From: Alicyclobacillus sacchari
Lineage (GTDB): Bacteria; Bacillota; Bacilli; Alicyclobacillales; Alicyclobacillaceae
NCBI RefSeq assembly: GCF_004366795.1
Contig: NZ_SORF01000001.1
Coordinates: 310,001 to 374,000 of the forward strand
Length of the DNA: 64,000 bases
Direction of reading: 5' to 3'
A program made the translations under genes and the position numbers. The notes under the pieces were generated by a model. That model was not told where the DNA came from, did not search any database, and worked only from the letters and a program-made list of their open reading frames with translations. Shown here in pieces: positions 7,906 through 23,645 of this stretch. Position 1 is the stretch's first letter; each line of letters begins with the position of its first letter.

Positions 7906-9072
7906 TTACATCCGGTACATCTCAAAAATCGGACTCGCCGCCGCTCCATAGGCACCTGCTAATTCGCCTAGCTGCGCCAATGTTAGATCTGCTTGAATCG
8001 GCATGATTTGTTTCAAACGTTGATCAATGCACTGTACGAGTGTATTTCCAACTCGCATGACACCTCCCCCCAAAATGATCTTTGCAGGGTTTACTAAGGC
8101 AATCATATGAGCTAAAGCAAAAGCCAGGTACTTGACCGTCTTGTTCACGACATATTGCCCAAGTTCATCGCCTTGACGTGCGGCTTCGAAGACATCCTCG
8201 GCACGGATTTCCCTACCTTGAAGACTCGAATGACCAAATTTATTCATATTCGATTGCACTTCCAATCGAATACCAGTGCCTGATGCGACATTCTCAAGGG
8301 CACCGAATCGGGTCACGTCACTTTGAGCATTGGTAAACGGATCGATAGGGACGTATCCGACCTCACCTGCATACCCGGCCGCGCCACGATGAATCTGCCC
8401 TTGGATCATAAGTGCTGCACCGATTCCAGTGCCAATGGCTACAAAGATGACGTCGTCATCGTCACGGCCAGCACCAACCCACTTTTCCCCTATTAACGCC
8501 ATATTCACGTCATTGTCGACAATGATAGGCTCCGGCAAGTACGAGTGAAAAGCCTCTTTGAGATTGACATTCACCCAATCTAAGCCTGGGGCAGCTAAGA
8601 CCGTGCCGTCCATATAGTTGATAAGACCCGGTGCGCCAACCCCGGAACCAACCATTTTGTCCATTGGAACGCCAGACTCCTGGAGAAACCTTTGCGCTTC
8701 CGTACGCAAATGCTCAACTGTATCAACACCTTCTCGGCGTGATGCAATTTTCCGCTGTGCAATCACAGTTCCGGCGAGATCGGTGAGCAAAAACATCGTC
8801 TTGGTTCCGCCAATGTCCATTCCAAATGAATACCGGGCGGTTGGAACAAACTCCAATCGAACAGAAGGGCGTCCTCCTCTGGATGTTGAGCTTCCAGTTC
8901 CCACCTCGCGTACGAAACCTTCCACAAGTAAAGAGTCAACAATGTCTGATACAACCGAACGGCTGAGTTCTAATCGCTTCGCGATATCAGCTCTTGAAAT
9001 GGGTTGATTCAATCTCACCTCCCTCAATACATTGGCACGATTGACGTTGCGCATGACAGTACCCATTCGCAT
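7906..9072 (-). CDS. ROK family transcriptional regulator (NagC/XylR type)
   Basis: I set the start at the ATG at 9072, because GGGGAG lies eight bases upstream; the longer frame to 9168 runs through the operator and promoter. The 388 residues contain an N-terminal winged helix (about 10-65, 'PISRADIAKRLELSRSVVSD') and a ROK kinase-like domain ('GMDIGGTKTMFLL', 'GAPGLINYMDG', 'ILGGGV'). An oddity is that the zinc site usual in ROK proteins is missing: 'GEVGY' replaces the usual GHxxH-like His region, and no CxCGxxGC follows. It probably represses its own operon with permease and nagB, and an amino-sugar ligand is likely. Confidence 0.88.
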   Translation of the reverse strand: MRMGTVMRNVNRANVLREVRLNQPISRADIAKRLELSRSVVSDIVDSLLVEGFVREVGTGSSTSRGGRPSVRLEFVPTARYSFGMDIGGTKTMFLLTDLAGTVIAQRKIASRREGVDTVEHLRTEAQRFLQESGVPMDKMVGSGVGAPGLINYMDGTVLAAPGLDWVNVNLKEAFHSYLPEPIIVDNDVNMALIGEKWVGAGRDDDDVIFVAIGTGIGAALMIQGQIHRGAAGYAGEVGYVPIDPFTNAQSDVTRFGALENVASGTGIRLEVQSNMNKFGHSSLQGREIRAEDVFEAARQGDELGQYVVNKTVKYLAFALAHMIALVNPAKIILGGGVMRVGNTLVQCIDQRLKQIMPIQADLTLAQLGELAGAYGAAASPIFEMYRM

Positions 9073-9091
9073 TCCGTACACTCCCCAGCAG

Positions 9092-9118
9092 GTTTGTTTG
9101 CTCTTACACCAAACAAAC
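9092..9118. promoter_or_regulatory. inverted repeat, likely ROK autoregulatory operator
   Basis: Two perfect 9-base arms, GTTTGTTTG (9092-9100) and CAAACAAAC (9110-9118), are separated by nine bases. The repeat lies between the probable transcription start (near 9124) and the ribosome binding site of the ROK gene, a position where a bound repressor would block the operon. Confidence 0.6.
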
Positions 9119-9130
9119 TTTCTCTTGCGC

Positions 9131-9159
9131 ATTATATCCTCAACTGGCTGTTTTGTAAA
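9131..9159 (-). promoter_or_regulatory. sigma-A-type promoter of the ROK-permease-nagB operon
   Basis: On the minus strand TTTACA (9159-9154) and TATAAT (9136-9131) are 17 bases apart, a near-consensus vegetative promoter about 60 bases before the ROK start. Confidence 0.7.
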
Positions 9160-9265
9160 CGCATTCAAAAAGTCGTACTATCAGTCCTCAAACGATGATT
9201 CGCGGAGACCACCACGTAATCCAGCAACACATGACTTGATTCACATAATTGAGGAAATAGGTACT

Positions 9266-9319
9266 AAAAAAAAAAAAGACCCTCAGCATTAAGCTGATGG
9301 GCCTTCCTGCATACGCAGG
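9266..9319 (-). terminator. terminator of cysK, with a second hairpin ahead of it
   Basis: On the minus strand a hairpin built on CATCAGC/GCTGAGGG-type arms is followed by a run of twelve T (9266-9277). Just before it lies a second short hairpin (CCTGC/GCAGG, 9306-9319). The interval 9320-9478 also holds an exact inverted repeat, GTGTAGA (9339-9345) and TCTACAC (9354-9360), but no gene. Confidence 0.75.
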
Positions 9320-9478
9320 ACACTCGGGTTTAGGTACAGTGTAGAACAGTTCGTCTACACCACACTATGAAGTATACTGAGGTTCCAAGCCTTGCACATG
9401 AGTCCTGAGACCTATCTTTTGCAAAAAACACATTTCCTTTGTGTCATGGTGTCGATCCCGACAGCCAAAAAAGACGAC

Positions 9479-10402
9479 TTACATTTGATACAGATCGGAC
9501 GAAAGATAGCGCTCGCCAGTGTCCGGCGCCAAACACAGGACTCGTGCATCCTTGGGCAGTTTACTGGCCACCTGCAAGCCGTGGAAAACGGAAGCTGCCC
9601 CCGATGCACCAAGTAAAATACCTTCCTCTGCAGCTAAGCGCCGCGCTGTATTTTGTGCGTCTTTGTCCTCGATGAGCAGAATCTCATCGAAAGCTTTGCG
9701 ATTCAAGATGCTCGGCACAAAGCCTGGGCCTGTCCCTGGGATTTTATGAGGTCCAGGTTGCCCACCCGACAAGACCGGCGATCCTTTCGGCTCGACGACA
9801 TAGATTTTGAGTCCAGGAATCCTTTTCTTCAGTTCTTCACCCGTACCAGTGACAGTGCCACCCGTGCCAGCAGTGAGAACAAAAGCATCGAGCTTACCCT
9901 CAAAGTCCTCATAAATTTCAACCGCCGTCGTGCCACGATGGGCGTCTGGGTTCGCCGGATTATCGAACTGTTGCGCGATAAAGCTGTGCGGAATGCTTGC
10001 CGCCAACTCTTCGGCCTCCTTAATCGCCCCTGTCATCCGCTGGGCCTCTGGTGTGAGATGAACTTCTGCTCCGTAGGCTTTGAGCAGCTTGACGCGTTCT
10101 TCGGTCGCGTTTTCCGGCATCGTGATGATACAACGATACCCCCGGGCGGCACACACCATCGCCAAACCAATACCAGTGTTTCCCGATGTCGCTTCGATCA
10201 CGGTGCTCTTTCCTGGAATCAGCTTGCCTTCCTTCTCAGCTTGCAAAATCATGTTCAGGGCTGGCCTGTCCTTCACGCTGCCAGCCGGATTTTTCCCTTC
10301 CAATTTCACATAGACTTGTGCACCATTCGGGTCTGGAAGTCGGTTAAGACGAACTGTGGGCGTATGGCCGACGAGCTCGAGAATCGAATTGTACAATGGC
10401 AT
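9479..10402 (-). CDS. cysK: cysteine synthase (O-acetylserine thiol-lyase)
   Basis: The start at 10402 ('MPLYNSILELVG') has AAGGAG just upstream; the longer frame to 10456 has none. The 307 residues carry the pyridoxal-phosphate Lys (K44 in 'NPAGSVKDRPA'), the phosphate loop 'TSGNTG' (73-78) and the 'GTGGTVTGTGE' loop. It makes cysteine from O-acetylserine and sulfide in the cytosol. The window also holds cysE, cysH and sulfite reductase, which complete most of the route. TATACT near 10486 could be its -10 element. Confidence 0.95.
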   Translation of the reverse strand: MPLYNSILELVGHTPTVRLNRLPDPNGAQVYVKLEGKNPAGSVKDRPALNMILQAEKEGKLIPGKSTVIEATSGNTGIGLAMVCAARGYRCIITMPENATEERVKLLKAYGAEVHLTPEAQRMTGAIKEAEELAASIPHSFIAQQFDNPANPDAHRGTTAVEIYEDFEGKLDAFVLTAGTGGTVTGTGEELKKRIPGLKIYVVEPKGSPVLSGGQPGPHKIPGTGPGFVPSILNRKAFDEILLIEDKDAQNTARRLAAEEGILLGASGAASVFHGLQVASKLPKDARVLCLAPDTGERYLSSDLYQM

Positions 10403-10542
10403 GGCATTTGCTCCTTGTTCGAATTGAGCTAAGGTGCTTGATCGACAGCAGAACACCTAGCACTACAAAATAGATTCAACTCTTATAGTATAACTCGGAA
10501 AAAGTGAAATTTCAGTTGCTGTTTTGAGAATCACCAGCTGAC

Positions 10543-10989
10543 TCAGCCGACGTTCAACACCTCGTTTAACAAGTCGACGGCACTTTGCTCGTCCTGGCAC
10601 ACAAGCAACATGGTATCGTCGCCGCAAATAGTACCTAAAAGGCCAGGCGGGTTCAGCGCGTCCATCAAGGCCCCGATTGCATGCGCGTTTCCCGGTGCCA
10701 CCTTGATGATAATCAGATTGTTGGCACGTGCCTGGGAGATAAATACATCAGCCAGACGCCTGCGCAAAGCGTCAAGCGAAACCGTATTCGTTGCCGTCGG
10801 TATGGCGTATTTGTATTTTCCGTTCGATCCGACAATTTTAATCAACTGTAGTTCCTTAATATCGCGAGAGATAGTCGCCTGAGTCACCTGAAAACCAGCT
10901 GCCTCGAGTGCATGAACCAGTTCTTCCTGCGTTTCGATTTCCTGTTGGCTCACCAGTTCTCGTATACGCAACAACCGCTGTTCTTTCAC
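10543..10989 (-). CDS. argR: arginine repressor ArgR
   Basis: A GTG at 10989 preceded by GGAGG gives 148 residues, the family's normal size. The N-terminal winged helix (about 1-70) has 'TQATISRDIKELQLIKI', the ArgR DNA-recognition helix. The C-terminal hexamerisation domain has 'GLLGTICGDDTMLLVC', where the Asp pair binds arginine. It represses arginine synthesis and activates breakdown in Bacilli. It is divergent from dinB; the starts are 107 bases apart. Confidence 0.95.
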   Translation of the reverse strand: MKEQRLLRIRELVSQQEIETQEELVHALEAAGFQVTQATISRDIKELQLIKIVGSNGKYKYAIPTATNTVSLDALRRRLADVFISQARANNLIIIKVAPGNAHAIGALMDALNPPGLLGTICGDDTMLLVCQDEQSAVDLLNEVLNVG

Positions 10990-11095
10990 GTGTATTGCCT
11001 CCTGCCGTTTGAGTACACCAGGGCAACCATTGGCCTCCCACTGCATTCCCTTTTTGGACGCAGTTCGCTACACTAAGTGTGAGAGGTGGGTCAAG

Positions 11096-12394
11096 ATGGA
11101 CCGGGAGCGACAAATTCTCCACATCGACATGAACGCGTTTTACGCTTCGTGCCATGTTGCCCAGTCACCACACCGCTACGCTGGCAAACCGATTGCCGTG
11201 GCCGGCAATCCAGAAACGCGCCATGGCATCGTCGTCACAGCAAGCTACGAGGCGCGAGCGCGCGGCGTACGGACGACGATGACGGTCGCCGAAGCCTTGC
11301 GGGCATGCCCCGAGCTGCTCGTCATTCGCCCAGACTTCCCACTCTACAGATCATTCGCACGCCAAGTATTTGACACGGTACGCCGTTTTACGCCTGCTGT
11401 CGAGATCGTCAGCATCGACGAATGCTATGCGGACGTGACCGGCAGTTCGCAGTTTGGCGACGACATCGAGATTGCCCGTAGGATTCAATGTATGCTTCGC
11501 GCTGAATTGCAGCTTCCCTGCTCCATCGGCGTTGCGACCAACAAGTTTTTTGCGAAAATGGGCAGTGATCTGCGCAAACCCATGGCAATTACGCGCATTG
11601 ACAAGACAAATTATCAAACTCTGCTTTGGCCGCTACCCGTCTCGGAGATGCACGGTGTAGGACATCGCACCGCGTTGGCCCTGCACAAAGCCGGCATTCG
11701 TACGATTGGCGATCTCGCCGTTGCTCCTATTGAACTTCTTAAGCGGCTCTGCGGCAGTCGCGGCGCCGTGCTTCGCCAGTATGCAAATGGCTTGGATGAA
11801 CGCCCTGTCGTCAGCGGCCGTCCAGATCCCAAAAGTGTAAGCCATTCTGTCACATTGCCCCTCGATACCACAGATCGGGATTTGATCCGACGCACACTCC
11901 TGCAATTAGCGGATCAAGTGGGCAGACGGTTGCGCAAGCACGGCAAGGCTGGCCGTGTCGTTACGCTAATCGTCCGCGACAAGTCCATGCAGACCATCTC
12001 GCGGCAAGCCAAGCGAGCGCTGGCCTCGAATTTGACAGATGACATCTACCGCGACGCCACAGCCTTACTCAATGCGAATTGGCCCGTACAAAAGCCTATC
12101 CGCCTGCTCGGCATCAGCGTCAGCGACTTGATCGACGCAGCGGAGATCGACACCACATGGCAACTTGGGTTGTTCGATAATCCGCGCAGTCAGGCCGCCT
12201 TTGAGAAGCGGTTGCGCCTTCAAAGGTTGACAGAGGTCACCGATACTTTACGCAATCGATTTGGTGAGAATGTCGTCGTCCGCGGCCGGATGATTGAACG
12301 CGACGGCCGGGCCACTCATGATAAGCGGGCTCACGGCACGTCGCTGCAGACAGACAACCTACATGAAGAGGAGTCTAACAAATGGAAGTCATGA
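11096..12394 (+). CDS. dinB: DNA polymerase IV (Y family)
   Basis: The ATG at 11096 follows GAGAGGTGGG. The 432 residues show the catalytic carboxylates of Y-family polymerases: D11 in 'HIDMNAFYASC', and D108/E109 in 'VSIDECYADV'. The thumb ('GVATNKFFAKMGSDLRKP'), the helix-hairpin-helix near 'MHGVGHRTALALHKAGI' and a little-finger domain follow. The end 'LGLFD' may be a clamp-binding motif. The enzyme does error-prone synthesis past DNA lesions. A 32-codon gene overlaps its 3' end. Confidence 0.93.
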   Translation: MDRERQILHIDMNAFYASCHVAQSPHRYAGKPIAVAGNPETRHGIVVTASYEARARGVRTTMTVAEALRACPELLVIRPDFPLYRSFARQVFDTVRRFTPAVEIVSIDECYADVTGSSQFGDDIEIARRIQCMLRAELQLPCSIGVATNKFFAKMGSDLRKPMAITRIDKTNYQTLLWPLPVSEMHGVGHRTALALHKAGIRTIGDLAVAPIELLKRLCGSRGAVLRQYANGLDERPVVSGRPDPKSVSHSVTLPLDTTDRDLIRRTLLQLADQVGRRLRKHGKAGRVVTLIVRDKSMQTISRQAKRALASNLTDDIYRDATALLNANWPVQKPIRLLGISVSDLIDAAEIDTTWQLGLFDNPRSQAAFEKRLRLQRLTEVTDTLRNRFGENVVVRGRMIERDGRATHDKRAHGTSLQTDNLHEEESNKWKS

Positions 12395-20103: not shown

Positions 20104-20415
20104 CTAGAACGTGCCCCAGAGCCCCTGGTATGTTCTCACCAACGCGAGCTTTCGGGCGCGCGGCAGCCGCTTGATGGCTCGTTCGCGCCGTAAAGCCGCA
20201 CATTTGTCGGCATGTGATTCGACGTAAAGCAGACGAACAGGGCCGCGCCCGCGTGTGTACTTCGCGCCGCGGCCTTTGTTGTGCATTGCGATCCGCCGCA
20301 ACACGTCGGTCGCATAGCCGGTATAGAGAGTTCCATCGCCGCACTCGACGATGTACACGAAGTGTCCTTGTCCACGATCGCCATCCGATTCGAGTCGGGC
20401 AACGTCCTTGTTCAT
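20104..20415 (-). CDS. GIY-YIG nuclease domain protein (UPF0213)
   Basis: This 103-residue single-domain protein has 'FVYIVECGDGTLYTGYATD' (the GIY-YIG pair), 'RRIAMHNKGRGAKYTRGRGP' and 'LRRERAIKRLPRARKLAL', the UPF0213/YazA pattern. It is a presumed DNA-acting nuclease of unknown role. Its ATG overlaps the stop of the alpha/beta hydrolase by four bases. Confidence 0.88.
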   Translation of the reverse strand: MNKDVARLESDGDRGQGHFVYIVECGDGTLYTGYATDVLRRIAMHNKGRGAKYTRGRGPVRLLYVESHADKCAALRRERAIKRLPRARKLALVRTYQGLWGTF

Positions 20416-21212
20416 GCTTCGAGAAACGATTCGACGTCGGCCAGTACGTCGCTTGCAGCTTGCAGTGTGAAGCCATGTCCGGTGCCAGGATACTCGCGCA
20501 GGATCGAGTTAGGAAGCCTGCGGTGCAGTGTACGGCCATTTTCCACAGGGATCAACATGTCGTCCGTACCATGCAGCACGAGCGTCTCATGCGTGATGGC
20601 TGGCAGCCTGTCATACGTCCCCGGCCACGTCTGTATGGCATGGAGTTGTCGAAAGTAGTTCTCCCGCGGCATCGGATGGCGCATCAGTGCGCGGAAGCTG
20701 TTTTCGAGCAACGGCAGATTCTCGGCAATAAATGCGTCTGGAAAGAGAAGTCGAATCTGATTTTGCAGCTCTTGCCCCGCATCGCCCGGCTGTCCCACCA
20801 GCATGGCGGCGGCCTCCGCTGTCGGGGGCGTCTGCTCCTTTCCTCCACACGTCGTACACCCAAGAATCAACTTTCGCACGTGCCCAGGGTGGTGCAGGGC
20901 AACCTCCTGGGCAACCATACCACCCATCGAAACGCCAAACACGTCAGCCATCGCGAGACCCAAGTGTTTCATAAGACCGACGACGTCCTCCGCCATATCG
21001 ACCAGCGTAAACGGCTTGTCCCCACGCAACACCGTCCTCGCGGCACCGCGATTGTCGAAGACGATGAGCTGACGCTTAGCGGCAAGCCGCCGAACAAAGC
21101 CACTCCCCCACCAGTCGGCGTTTCCGCCAAGACCCATAATCAAAATAAGTGGCTGGCCTTCTCCATGCACTTCGTAATACAGCTCGACAGCACCCAAGTC
21201 AGCTAGTGGCAC
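20412..21212 (-). CDS. alpha/beta hydrolase
   Basis: A GTG at 21212 behind GGGAGGAAG gives 266 residues; the longer frame begins inside the upstream terminator. It has the oxyanion loop 'MGLGGNADWW', the nucleophile elbow 'GVSMGG' (S95), a late Asp ('HGTDDMLIPVENG') and His ('GTGHGFTLQ'), which make the complete triad. It resembles 3-oxoadipate enol-lactonase-type hydrolases, but the substrate cannot be read from context. Confidence 0.85.
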   Translation of the reverse strand: MPLADLGAVELYYEVHGEGQPLILIMGLGGNADWWGSGFVRRLAAKRQLIVFDNRGAARTVLRGDKPFTLVDMAEDVVGLMKHLGLAMADVFGVSMGGMVAQEVALHHPGHVRKLILGCTTCGGKEQTPPTAEAAAMLVGQPGDAGQELQNQIRLLFPDAFIAENLPLLENSFRALMRHPMPRENYFRQLHAIQTWPGTYDRLPAITHETLVLHGTDDMLIPVENGRTLHRRLPNSILREYPGTGHGFTLQAASDVLADVESFLEA

Positions 21213-21243
21213 CCTCGCTTCCTCCCATCGCACCATCCACAAA

Positions 21244-21278
21244 TATAAAAAAAGAGGCACACCTAAACGCAGGTGGCC
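21244..21278 (-). terminator. terminator of the NCS1 permease gene
   Basis: On the minus strand GGCCACCT and AGGTGTGCC form a stem (21278-21256) followed by seven T. It also lies directly before the hydrolase gene. Confidence 0.8.
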
Positions 21279-21369
21279 CAAATCAGGGGTAAAGGGTTAA
21301 TACAAATGTAGCACAACGGCGGAGATATTTCCATGGCCAAACGGGCAATCCATCGCTACATGGTGTCGG

Positions 21370-23040
21370 TCAATGTGCAGACACAGACGTTTTACACAGG
21401 TCGTGACACGCACTCTCCAAGCTGCAGCAGAGCGAACAGATAGGCGCTTTGTGAAAAGGACAGTACAACACATCGACCTTTTCATACACAAATCCGCACG
21501 ATGCACAAGTCAACTCATCAGGTGAGTCCGAATGTTTGTGGGTCTCGTGATGCCTATCCGAATGTTCGAAGGCATTCTCCCGCGCAATGTAGTATTTGCC
21601 CCGCGTCACAAGGGCAATTACGGGAGCGAGTACGAAGGCCAACACGAAAGATAAGAACGGCGAGTATGCCTGGAGTATCAATCCAAACGCCCCAAAGAAG
21701 GCCGCAATAGACACGCTTGCCGCAATGATCATGGATCCAAATCCAACTGGGTTAAAGTTGTATAAGTGTCCGCGCTTAAATTCGATATAAGAGGGGCTGA
21801 TTTTCAAAAGACCTTTGTTGATGACGAGATCGGAAACCACCGCCCCGATCCAGGCGACCGCAAGATTCGAGTAAAACCCGAGCACTGTGTTCAAGAACCC
21901 AAACACGCCTGCTTCCATCAGACCAAGCGAAATCCCCACGTTCAGGAAAAGCCAGACGATGCGGCCCGGATGCGAGTGGAAGATACGCGAAAAGAAGTTA
22001 GACCATGATAGTGATCCTGAATACGCATTTGTCACGTTGATTTTGATCTGTGATAGCAGTACGAAGAATGTGGCTAATGCAAGCGCTGCATAACCGTTGC
22101 CTATCACTGTATGAAAGGCTTGCGTGTACATTCTGATTGGCTCGTCAGCCGCTTTGCTTCCCATAGCCGGGTCAATCCACGAAGCTAAAAGGGAGCCTCC
22201 CAGTTGTTTGATGGCACCTAAGATGACCCAACCCGGGCCTGCAAACATGACGGCTAACCACCATTTGTTGCGATTTTGGGAAGTGAGGTTTGGCATGAAG
22301 CGCAGATAATCCACCTGCTCTCCAATTTGCACGATTAAGGACAACGTTACACCGGCAGCTAGACCGAACTCCAAAGGGGTAAAGTGGCTGCCGGAAGCCG
22401 AGGCTCCACCAAATTGCATCCAGTGCGAAAACACGGACGGATCCTGAAGCGCGATCGCGACGAACGGGCCGAGCATCAGCACGAGCCAAACAGGTTGGGT
22501 GATCATCTGCAGCTTGGACAAAGCCGTCATGCCAAACATGACAAGTGGGATGACAACCAAGGAACAGATAAGGTATCCGATAGCCAGAGGAATGTGGAAG
22601 AACTCTTGCAACGCCTGCGCCATAACAGAACCTTCAAGTGAAAAATAGATGAATGTAAACGACGCATAGACCAGTGAGGCCAGGGTGGAACCGTAATAGC
22701 CGAAGCCTGCTCCGCGCGTCAACAAATCCATATCAATATTGTGCTTGGCCGAGTAGTATGCGATGGGAATACCAGTAAGGAAAATCATAGCCGCCACCAC
22801 TAGAATGGCGGTCATGGCGTTCGCAAAACCGTACGTTAGCACTACAGAACCACCAATGGCGAAATCAGCCATATAAGCGATCCCGCCAAGAGCTGAATTC
22901 ATCACGGTCCATTCACCCCAACGACGGAATGACTTCGGTGCATAGCGGAGGGCATAGTCCTCCAGCACGGGATTTTGTACCCAACGATTGAATGTACGCT
23001 TGGGCCTCAAGTGCCCTTGTTCTGGCTGCGGATGAGACAT
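21370..23040 (-). CDS. NCS1-family permease (cytosine/purine/allantoin type) with Cys-rich C-terminal tail
   Basis: The ATG at 23040 follows GGGAGGGG. The 556 residues have about twelve transmembrane segments with NCS1 features ('FAIGGSVVLTYGFANAMTAILVVAAMIF' region, 'TRGAGFGYYGS', 'NAYSGSLSWSNFFSRIF'). The family brings in nucleobases, hydantoins, allantoin or thiamine precursors with sodium or protons. Unusually, residues 509-556 form a cytoplasmic tail with eight Cys and two His ('TCASCGF', 'YCPFHKAPICSLCC', 'CHDLC'), likely a zinc or redox site. GlnR/TnrA-like boxes lie upstream, which supports a nitrogen-supply role. Confidence 0.85.
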   Translation of the reverse strand: MSHPQPEQGHLRPKRTFNRWVQNPVLEDYALRYAPKSFRRWGEWTVMNSALGGIAYMADFAIGGSVVLTYGFANAMTAILVVAAMIFLTGIPIAYYSAKHNIDMDLLTRGAGFGYYGSTLASLVYASFTFIYFSLEGSVMAQALQEFFHIPLAIGYLICSLVVIPLVMFGMTALSKLQMITQPVWLVLMLGPFVAIALQDPSVFSHWMQFGGASASGSHFTPLEFGLAAGVTLSLIVQIGEQVDYLRFMPNLTSQNRNKWWLAVMFAGPGWVILGAIKQLGGSLLASWIDPAMGSKAADEPIRMYTQAFHTVIGNGYAALALATFFVLLSQIKINVTNAYSGSLSWSNFFSRIFHSHPGRIVWLFLNVGISLGLMEAGVFGFLNTVLGFYSNLAVAWIGAVVSDLVINKGLLKISPSYIEFKRGHLYNFNPVGFGSMIIAASVSIAAFFGAFGLILQAYSPFLSFVLAFVLAPVIALVTRGKYYIARENAFEHSDRHHETHKHSDSPDELTCASCGFVYEKVDVLYCPFHKAPICSLCCSLESACHDLCKTSVSAH

Positions 23041-23116
23041 CGAAACCCCTCCCAAACCATCTGAACTGTTTGCAAACTCAACCTAACATTCCAAACCGCA
23101 CATTGGCAATCAAAAT

Positions 23117-23133
23117 TGTTATATAAACTAACA
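23117..23133. promoter_or_regulatory. GlnR/TnrA-like box 1
   Basis: TGTTATATAAACTAACA fits the TGTNA-N7-TNACA nitrogen box exactly. It lies about 80 bases upstream of the permease start. Confidence 0.65.
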
Positions 23134-23178
23134 TGTATAATCAATTTTTTAGGAACATCTGAATCGCGATGATATTTA

Positions 23179-23195
23179 TGTTATATAATACAACC
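23179..23195. promoter_or_regulatory. degenerate GlnR/TnrA-like half-box
   Basis: TGTTATATAATACAACC keeps the left half of the nitrogen box but not the right. It lies between two perfect copies. Confidence 0.35.
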
Positions 23196-23243
23196 TTCAT
23201 CTTAGCTCATATCAGGCCAAACTGGAGAATTAACGAGATGATA

Positions 23244-23260
23244 TGTTATATTATTTAACA
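23244..23260. promoter_or_regulatory. GlnR/TnrA-like box 2
   Basis: TGTTATATTATTTAACA is a second exact TGTNA-N7-TNACA match, about 127 bases from box 1 and in the same AT-rich intergenic region. Confidence 0.65.
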
Positions 23261-23587
23261 ATTATACTCCAGAACAAACTGTTCAACCTCTCTGGCCACA
23301 GCCGACGGTATTAGGAGGGACCAACGGTATCGTCGAATTCTCAAACGCCCGCTTGCACCCTGACGCTTTCCACCCAATCTGCAATCGATAGATCGGAAAA
23401 TGAGAATGCATTCCGAATCGTTGGATTATTTGTGAACGTGTGGTGTTTTAGAACCGGAGATGACGAAATAAAGTGGAGAACAATGTGATTATGAAGACAT
23501 TGTGAGCAGCCGTGCTGCCGTAGGGGTCATAATCAATTACAAGATAGAACGTCTACACAGAGCGAGGTCATGAACAAAACAATAATA
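23261..23587. other. gene-free stretch between the permease and cysE
   Basis: About 330 bases hold no open frame with a ribosome binding site. It includes a short GAGAATGCATTC-type inverted repeat near 23400 and ends at the cysE terminator. I see no further assignable element. Confidence 0.4.
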
Positions 23588-23630
23588 CATGCTGACCAGC
23601 CTCGCCCGTAAGCGAGGCTGGTCAGCATGT
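23588..23630 (-). terminator. terminator of cysE
   Basis: ACATGCTGACCAGCCTCGC and its perfect complement form a stem of about 18 base pairs with a five- to six-base loop. On the minus strand it is followed by a T-rich tail. Confidence 0.8.
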
Positions 23631-23645
23631 CATGTCAACCAAGAG

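Follow-up and report, generated by a model that had tools for sequence, protein, structure and literature searches.

The 64,000-nucleotide stretch of Alicyclobacillus sacchari DNA analysed here (the window) encodes a 556-residue membrane protein that ends in a conserved module of eight cysteines. In a large group of relatives, the same module joins the same kind of transporter to histidine kinases or to PAS-GGDEF-EAL proteins. In the best explanation, to which we give an even chance, the protein is an amide permease of predicted NCS1 fold, and its two-site metal module would read the state of the transporter and, in the fusions, relay that state to the outputs.

The permease gene (21370..23040, minus strand) reads from an ATG at 23040 to a stop codon at 21370-21372, as given by its open reading frame and translation. 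The sequence GGGAGGGG precedes the ATG and is a likely ribosome-binding site. Numbered from the start methionine, the nine cysteines of the protein lie at residues 159, 512, 515, 527, 535, 538, 539, 545 and 549. Eight of them fall within the last 45 residues and form the motif C-x2-C-x11-C-x7-C-x2-CC-x5-C-x3-C (residues 512-549). The initial annotation had described an eight-cysteine tail on a permease, and both its coordinates and its cysteine count proved right. It had also put the extra tail at about 48 residues past the last helix; the tail is real but longer, with about 78 residues beyond the last predicted helix (residue 478), divided between a variable linker and a 39-residue cysteine module. 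On the minus strand, the transporter core thus takes up residues 1-487 (21580..23040), the His-rich linker residues 488-511 (21508..21579) and the module residues 512-550 (21391..21507). The linker is mostly gapped in relatives. Compared with the nearest relative, dN (NG86, with dS near saturation) is 0.177 in the linker, 0.075 in the 40-residue tail and 0.052 over the whole protein.

The predicted structure of the permease, built on 46 alignment rows, has a mean pLDDT of 85.0 and a pTM of 0.87, with the blocks of the tail at 63-78. CodB (7qoa) and Mhp1 (2jln, 2x79, 4d1a) are its best rows in both Foldseek and VIA-align. The VIA-align Z-scores are 34.0 for CodB, 26.8-29.1 for Mhp1 and 23.3 for the next row, in rows that mostly cover residues 30-487 and barely compare the tail. 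SLC5-type rows fall far below CodB (CHT1, Z 22.0 vs 34.0). A Pfam scan of the permease found no family up to E 10, a PF02133 search of the genome returned two other genes and not the permease gene, and the NCBIfam CodB model gave a partial match of 27.8 bits against a cut-off of 326. The accessible text of a review names N-x-D/S-hydrophobic-x-P before helix 1 as an NCS1 (TC 2.A.39) trait (PMC6597760). The permease lacks this N-terminal pattern, but so, as searched here, do the genome's two PF02133-positive proteins. Because neither the Pfam scan nor the PF02133 search matched it, the permease is named NCS1-fold here rather than a Pfam NCS1 member. By its predicted structure it is an NCS1 fold beyond what Pfam recognises as NCS1, and its NCS1 kinship is remote. 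Of the earlier label, NCS1 permease, the fold stands as a prediction. The predicted structure of a fusion protein had a mean pLDDT of 49.4, too low for use.

Conservation of the tail and its fusions

A scan for the tail pattern in one genome per species (84,980 species) gave at least 593 matches, at least 591 of which are relatives of the permease; the best 80 loci were kept. Each of the eight cysteines is present in 47 of 47 sequences found by this pattern and sharing less than 85% identity. C535, C538 and C539 lie inside the search pattern, which biases their counts; the other five are unbiased. A tail-free query made from the core matched 44 of 299 Pseudomonadota genomes. All 42 matches with E < 1e-100 have the exact eight-cysteine spacing, and L175 was the one examined among the remainder. 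The same query matched 16 of 246 Actinomycetota genomes, with eight matches at E < 1e-100, three carrying the full tail and five a shorter one. Each sample was built around a genome that had first been identified through its tail. The tail that had been singled out as special is therefore a conserved module, recurring with exact spacing in matches found without it. A chance cluster of cysteines is ruled out by these counts and by the dN values above.

Closer to the window, 25 of 41 genomes (its own and 40 relatives) match the permease, and in 17 the match includes the tail. These 17 take in two paralogues at 36% identity and two broken copies, one in G040 and one in G027, where an intact paralogue accompanies it. 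In the remaining eight genomes the matches are distant, tail-less in two (G007 and G012) and ending before the tail in six. Absence or loss of conservation of the tail in close homologues was looked for and not found: orthologues at 57-91% identity keep it, except for one broken copy (L017/L029), the tail of which lies in another frame. A profile of the tail matched 2 of 398 genomes in the window's phylum, one of them the window's own. Frame-broken permease copies were seen in G040 (L017/L029) and in G027 (L030/L217), and the one in G027 adjoins urease genes.

No Pfam or NCBIfam model reaches its cut-off on the tail. The Cys-rich peptide family TIGR04165 was considered and rejected; its match covers 25 residues and scores 20.6 bits where 60 are required. 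Some relatives share the fold and have no tail (L020/L224, L021 and L225 at about 31-39% identity, L175 at 26-30%), so the module is unnecessary for the fold. In a 572-residue frame from Actinomycetota (L190, 28% identity), the terminal motif is CxxC...CxxC followed by a single further residue. What looks like a hydantoinase B-type protein is encoded on that stretch of contig as well.

The module is followed by a long extension in most of the loci kept. In 72 of these 80 (the best of at least 591 relatives), the frame extends 197 residues or more beyond the motif; in the other eight it ends within 23 residues. Seven fusions were scanned in Pfam: five carry HisKA and HATPase domains, three of these also with a receiver domain, and two carry PAS-GGDEF-EAL. 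The 42 strong Pseudomonadota matches are open frames of 894-1247 residues with a long C-terminal part after the tail. In six aligned fusions, inspected by eye, the module is followed by two hydrophobic segments, the first of them after about 25-30 residues, then by a coiled-coil-like stretch and HisKA. Standing before kinases as well as before GGDEF-EAL, the module thus serves as a junction to outputs of two kinds. The initial annotation had pointed to Cys-rich linkers in transporter-kinase fusions and proposed a search for the tail motif in other transporters and kinases. Such linkers do occur, as the 72 long frames and the five HisKA-HATPase proteins attest, and the search found the module joining a transporter to either a kinase or PAS-GGDEF-EAL. 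The window's permease ends at residue 556, with no histidine kinase in its chain.

The transporter and module are fused to PAS-GGDEF-EAL in a Helicobacteraceae MAG (L035) and in Sulfurimonas (L046), which implies a c-di-GMP output. A standalone tailed permease adjoins a transporter-kinase fusion in Salinisphaera (L176, divergent) and in Methylovirgula (L118, in a row). This arrangement suggests that the sensor fusion controls the adjoining permease in these two loci.

Neighbouring genes and the putative substrate

Hydrolase genes (formamidase, amidase or urease at 45% identity or more) lie beside 20 of 26 standalone loci and beside none of 20 control regions. The control regions, each of 19 kb, come from 14 genomes that all have a standalone permease, and they are a weaker control for the fused loci. 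The set of 26 excludes same-genome duplicates (L059, L176, L178 and shorter loci), half-tail loci and the deep relatives L213-L215. Seven of the 26 belong to one genus, and one (L118) supplied the AmiE query, without which the count is 19 of 25. Six, the window included, have no matching hydrolase.

Among the best 80 loci of the tail scan, homologues of urease, formamidase or aliphatic amidase flank all eight standalone loci. Beside the 72 fused loci are a response regulator (59 of 72), a UrtA homologue (47 of 72) and FmdA (5 of 72); the control regions have neither UrtA nor a response regulator (0 of 20 for each). None of the amide/urea genes is present in the flanks of 20 of the 72. In Methylovirgula, a formamidase, the fusion, a response regulator, the standalone permease and an amidase share one stretch. 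An earlier analysis, in the part of it available, took such a cluster of ABC transporter, FmdA and amidase genes as one for amide, rather than urea, uptake (PMC3098086). From the neighbours we infer that the substrate in the window's genus is formamide or acetamide, and that the wider family takes urea or amides.

Fusions also occur on plasmids, with urtABCDE and formamidase annotated beside them on a Klebsiella and a Paraburkholderia plasmid. The Klebsiella plasmid is conjugative, and its transporter-module-kinase fusion lies at 8992-12372 of locus L115. Plasmid records that match the window protein number 549, of which 342 are from Klebsiella. In such records the fusions are often annotated as 'ATP-binding protein', and permeases with half a tail as 'allantoin permease'. 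A paper on urinary CG307 Klebsiella discusses urea transporter genes, and its accessible text contains neither 'histidine kinase' nor 'sensor' (PMC13060141).

The window has lost the hydrolase genes that its relatives keep. In all seven relatives retrieved from the genus, the permease gene and fmdA-amiE are divergently oriented. The nearest relative (L200) has the order ileS, hydrolase, permease, fmdA, amiE, cysE, M20 peptidase, codY, and the order in the window equals it minus fmdA and amiE. Where L200 has 2.8 kb with both genes, the window has a scar of about 0.6 kb (a 590-base gap at 23056..23645, with no strand assigned). Within the scar, at 23479..23527 on the plus strand, is a relic of the start of amiE, which matches L200 at 77.6% in a 49-column alignment (E 2.6e-4); it scores 36.5 bits, and the highest score among 200 shuffles was 31.0. 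In the rest of the window's genome, no urease alpha subunit was found, the FmdA-like protein shares 29% identity with FmdA, and the single CN-hydrolase, at an E threshold of 1e-3, matches neither AmiE nor AmiF. The permease itself is intact and constrained and shows no sign of decay. Its dN/dS to the nearest relative is about 0.025 (dS is close to saturation); on the window's branch, counted at sites with concordant outgroups, there are 2 non-synonymous against 18 synonymous changes. The loss of fmdA-amiE is possibly recent, so no strong conclusion is drawn from the intact permease beside it. An alpha/beta hydrolase gene at 20412-21281 was considered as a partner and rejected; it adjoins the permease in L200 and was not found in L201-L206.

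Putative metal sites and the proposed role of the module

All eight cysteines, counted C1 to C8 from residue 512 to 549, are kept in 111 of 121 distinct tails, and losses are confined to ten. Nine of the ten keep C1, C2, C4 and C5 but lack C6, C7 and C8 altogether; six of the nine also have C3. The tenth (L028) keeps C1, C3, C4, C6, C7 and C8 and has Asp at positions 2 and 5. C1, C2, C4 and C5 are thus all kept in 120 of the 121, L028 being the exception. These complementary losses fit a pairing into two Cys4 sites, and suggest a site I made of C1, C2, C4 and C5 (C512, C515, C535, C538) and a site II made of C3, C6, C7 and C8 (C527, C539, C545, C549). The tail is modelled as strands and helices in the order CxxC knuckle, hairpin and helix starting with CxxC (block pLDDT 63-78). 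Treble clefs have their elements in this order, and the predicted arrangement agrees with site I. In the best explanation, itself evenly poised, site I would consist of the treble-clef knuckle and the first turn of the helix.

By analogy, the metal is probably zinc. Two histidines vary among members and are therefore unlikely as required ligands: the one labelled H535 is Tyr in 35 of 47 sequences, and the one labelled H551 is kept in 44 of 47. The zinc treble-clef family PF23475 matched one of 28 tails, at a non-significant E of 0.16. PDB sequence searches found no convincing relative of the tail; the best E of a profile search was 0.0096, over the first knuckle only, with no single stretch passing. 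A ferredoxin-type iron-sulfur site was also considered. Its spacing is CxxCxxCxxxCP, from which that of the tail differs, and the predicted elements are finger-like, so such a site is disfavoured. Permeases with a half-length tail (C1, C2, C4 and C5) form a clade (L116, L119, L177, L117 and L185-L189). Urease genes lie beside L116 and L177 and fmdA beside L119, and no such gene is annotated around L117. A half-tail permease precedes a urease operon in Acinetobacter and stands beside fmdA in Moraxella.

NCS1 transporters have a cytoplasmic C-terminus. Zinc binding and a sensor or docking role, both among the possibilities first raised for this tail, are plausible. In the best explanation, the permease would import a short-chain amide, which in this genus would be formamide or acetamide and in some relatives urea. 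The cytoplasmic module would hold two Cys4 metal sites, most likely for zinc, sit beneath the transporter and sense its alternating-access state. In standalone permeases, it would tune the state of the transporter itself or report it to a partner. In the fusions, putative sensors that often adjoin amide/urea ABC transporter genes, the state would pass through the module, the two further hydrophobic segments and the coiled coil to a histidine kinase or PAS-GGDEF-EAL. Conformation sensing would at first have helped the permease to regulate itself, and would later have been taken over as a relay to fused outputs, in line with the coupling proposed for STAC in CbrA (PMC13022988). The module is nearly unchanged whichever hydrolase adjoins it and whichever output follows it. 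The explanation draws on the exact spacing in 42 of 42 strong matches, the two kinds of output, the tailed standalones outside one fused clade, the complementary cysteine losses, the modelled order of elements in the tail, and the hydrolase, UrtA and response regulator genes nearby. The tail, its conservation, the fusions, the neighbouring genes and the single fused clade are read directly from sequence, the fold and the site pairing are predictions, and zinc, the substrate and the relay are inferred. Counting against the explanation are the tail-less relatives, the six standalone loci with no matching hydrolase (the window having lost its own), the 20 fused loci with no amide/urea genes in their flanks, the lack of a fused output in the standalone permease and a tail model of moderate confidence.

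The main alternative, which we consider possible if doubtful, is a structural cap. The metal module would stabilise the C-terminus or a dimer interface, carry no signal and be an inherited spacer in the fusions. It would then be natural for permeases without any output domain to keep it, for nine tails to persist with one site only and for the tail to predate the fusion. A spacer could drift, however, and the exact spacing holds in 42 of 42 fusions found without the tail, despite the hydrophobic segments and long linkers that come after it. The tail-less relatives also argue against a cap, as their fold has no need of the module.

It is unlikely that the tail is a docking site for a cytoplasmic hydrolase (formamidase, amidase or urease), to which the amide would be handed over on entry. 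The hydrolase genes adjoining 20 of 26 standalone loci are what such docking would predict, but the hydrolases are mutually unrelated, whereas the tail is nearly constant and is kept in fusions beside ABC transporters. In the window, moreover, the neighbouring hydrolases are gone and the tail is intact and constrained, although the loss may be recent. Less likely again is a metal or redox sensor, in which zinc loss or cysteine oxidation would shut or open the permease or the fused kinase. Eight nearly invariant cytoplasmic cysteines would suit this role, as would the fact that urease and formamidase are metalloenzymes. However, no metal or redox gene recurs among the neighbours viewed in annotated regions, and the half tails retain a full site I, as for a structural site.

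Order of events and comparison with known systems

Trees of the core without the tail were built from 90 rows, and from 87 after the three longest outgroup rows were dropped. The rows were thinned by shared 5-mers, L017, L029, L113 and L191 were left out, and a quick tree type without bootstrap was used. In both trees, a branch with an SH-aLRT of 100 separates the 65 fused rows from the others; among these 65, one is truncated at the end of its contig and three ('fused_other') are unrecognised by the kinase/GGDEF pattern. The standalones fall outside this clade, as do the outgroup and L018/L019, which are deep tailed relatives (standalone, about 32-36% identity); the GGDEF-EAL fusions are nested within it. 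The basal branching order of the standalones is weakly supported (58-89), so the claim is restricted to standalones being underived from fusions. Since tailed standalones branch apart from the one fused clade, the tail seems to have arisen earlier than the fusion. The simplest history, as read from the sequences, would be tail first, one fusion and then an exchange of outputs. That the window's permease broke away from a transporter-kinase fusion, the origin that the initial annotation suspected, would explain a linker sequence common to both but is very improbable and unsupported by the single fused clade in two trees, by the standalone state of L018/L019 and by standalone frames that stop within 23 residues of the motif end.

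The preferred reading, a module that senses transporter conformation, can be extended to a fuller history, which we hold tentatively and at somewhat less than an even chance. The two-site module would have arisen on amide/urea permeases as a conformation read-out and been fused once to outputs, which were then exchanged (kinases, c-di-GMP enzymes). This would have given rise to widespread amide/urea transceptors, at hundreds of loci and also on conjugative plasmids, with a coupling independent of STAC. Standalones of the ancestral type, the window's permease among them, would employ the module to this day, either in direct feedback or in signalling to a separate partner. If true, this would be a second, independent route from transporter to receptor, with seeming pre-fusion forms still alive in Bacillota, and the pre-kinase role of a coupling domain would become directly testable. 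It would also name a common, poorly labelled protein group and make the fusion a likely regulator of urea/formamide genes on a Klebsiella plasmid. A literature search, conducted largely outside subscription papers, found no recognisable report of the cysteine module or of an NCS1-type transporter-kinase fusion.

The permease has, by prediction, a fold in common with CodB (7qoa) and Mhp1 (2jln, 2x79, 4d1a). It shares 14-18% identity with them over the aligned parts, and differs in having no PF02133 match and in its conserved eight-cysteine tail. According to the accessible text of the NCS1 review, the C-tail of this family has no ubiquitously conserved motif, and tails matter in fungal NCS1 proteins (PMC6597760). 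Zinc treble-clef fingers, such as PF23475, are like the tail in its predicted knuckle, hairpin and CxxC-led helix. The tail differs from them in its proposed second, interleaved Cys4 set, and its match to PF23475 is non-significant.

The ammonium sensor KsAmt5, an Amt-histidine kinase, has a transporter fold unrelated to that of the permease. Like the fusions described here, it combines a transporter with a kinase for a nitrogen compound (PMC8534201 and PMC5764959, in their accessible parts), and no such cysteine module is mentioned in the accessible text of the former (PMC8534201). Transporter-kinase fusions of the SLC5-STAC and Amt types were thus already known, as the available portions of PMC13022988 and PMC8534201 describe. 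The SLC5-STAC histidine kinases (CbrA, CrbS and RpuS), as far as the accessible sources describe them, are built alike, from a transporter, a small cytoplasmic module and a sensor kinase. In CbrA, the STAC domain holds an analogous position, and a coupling role has been proposed for it (PMC13022988, partial text). The parts themselves differ: the SLC5-STAC proteins join an SLC5 transporter to a four-helix bundle, whereas the fusions described here join an NCS1-like transporter to a Cys-rich module. Unlike SLC5-STAC, the eight-cysteine family also includes GGDEF-EAL fusions, and standalone tailed permeases are common in it.
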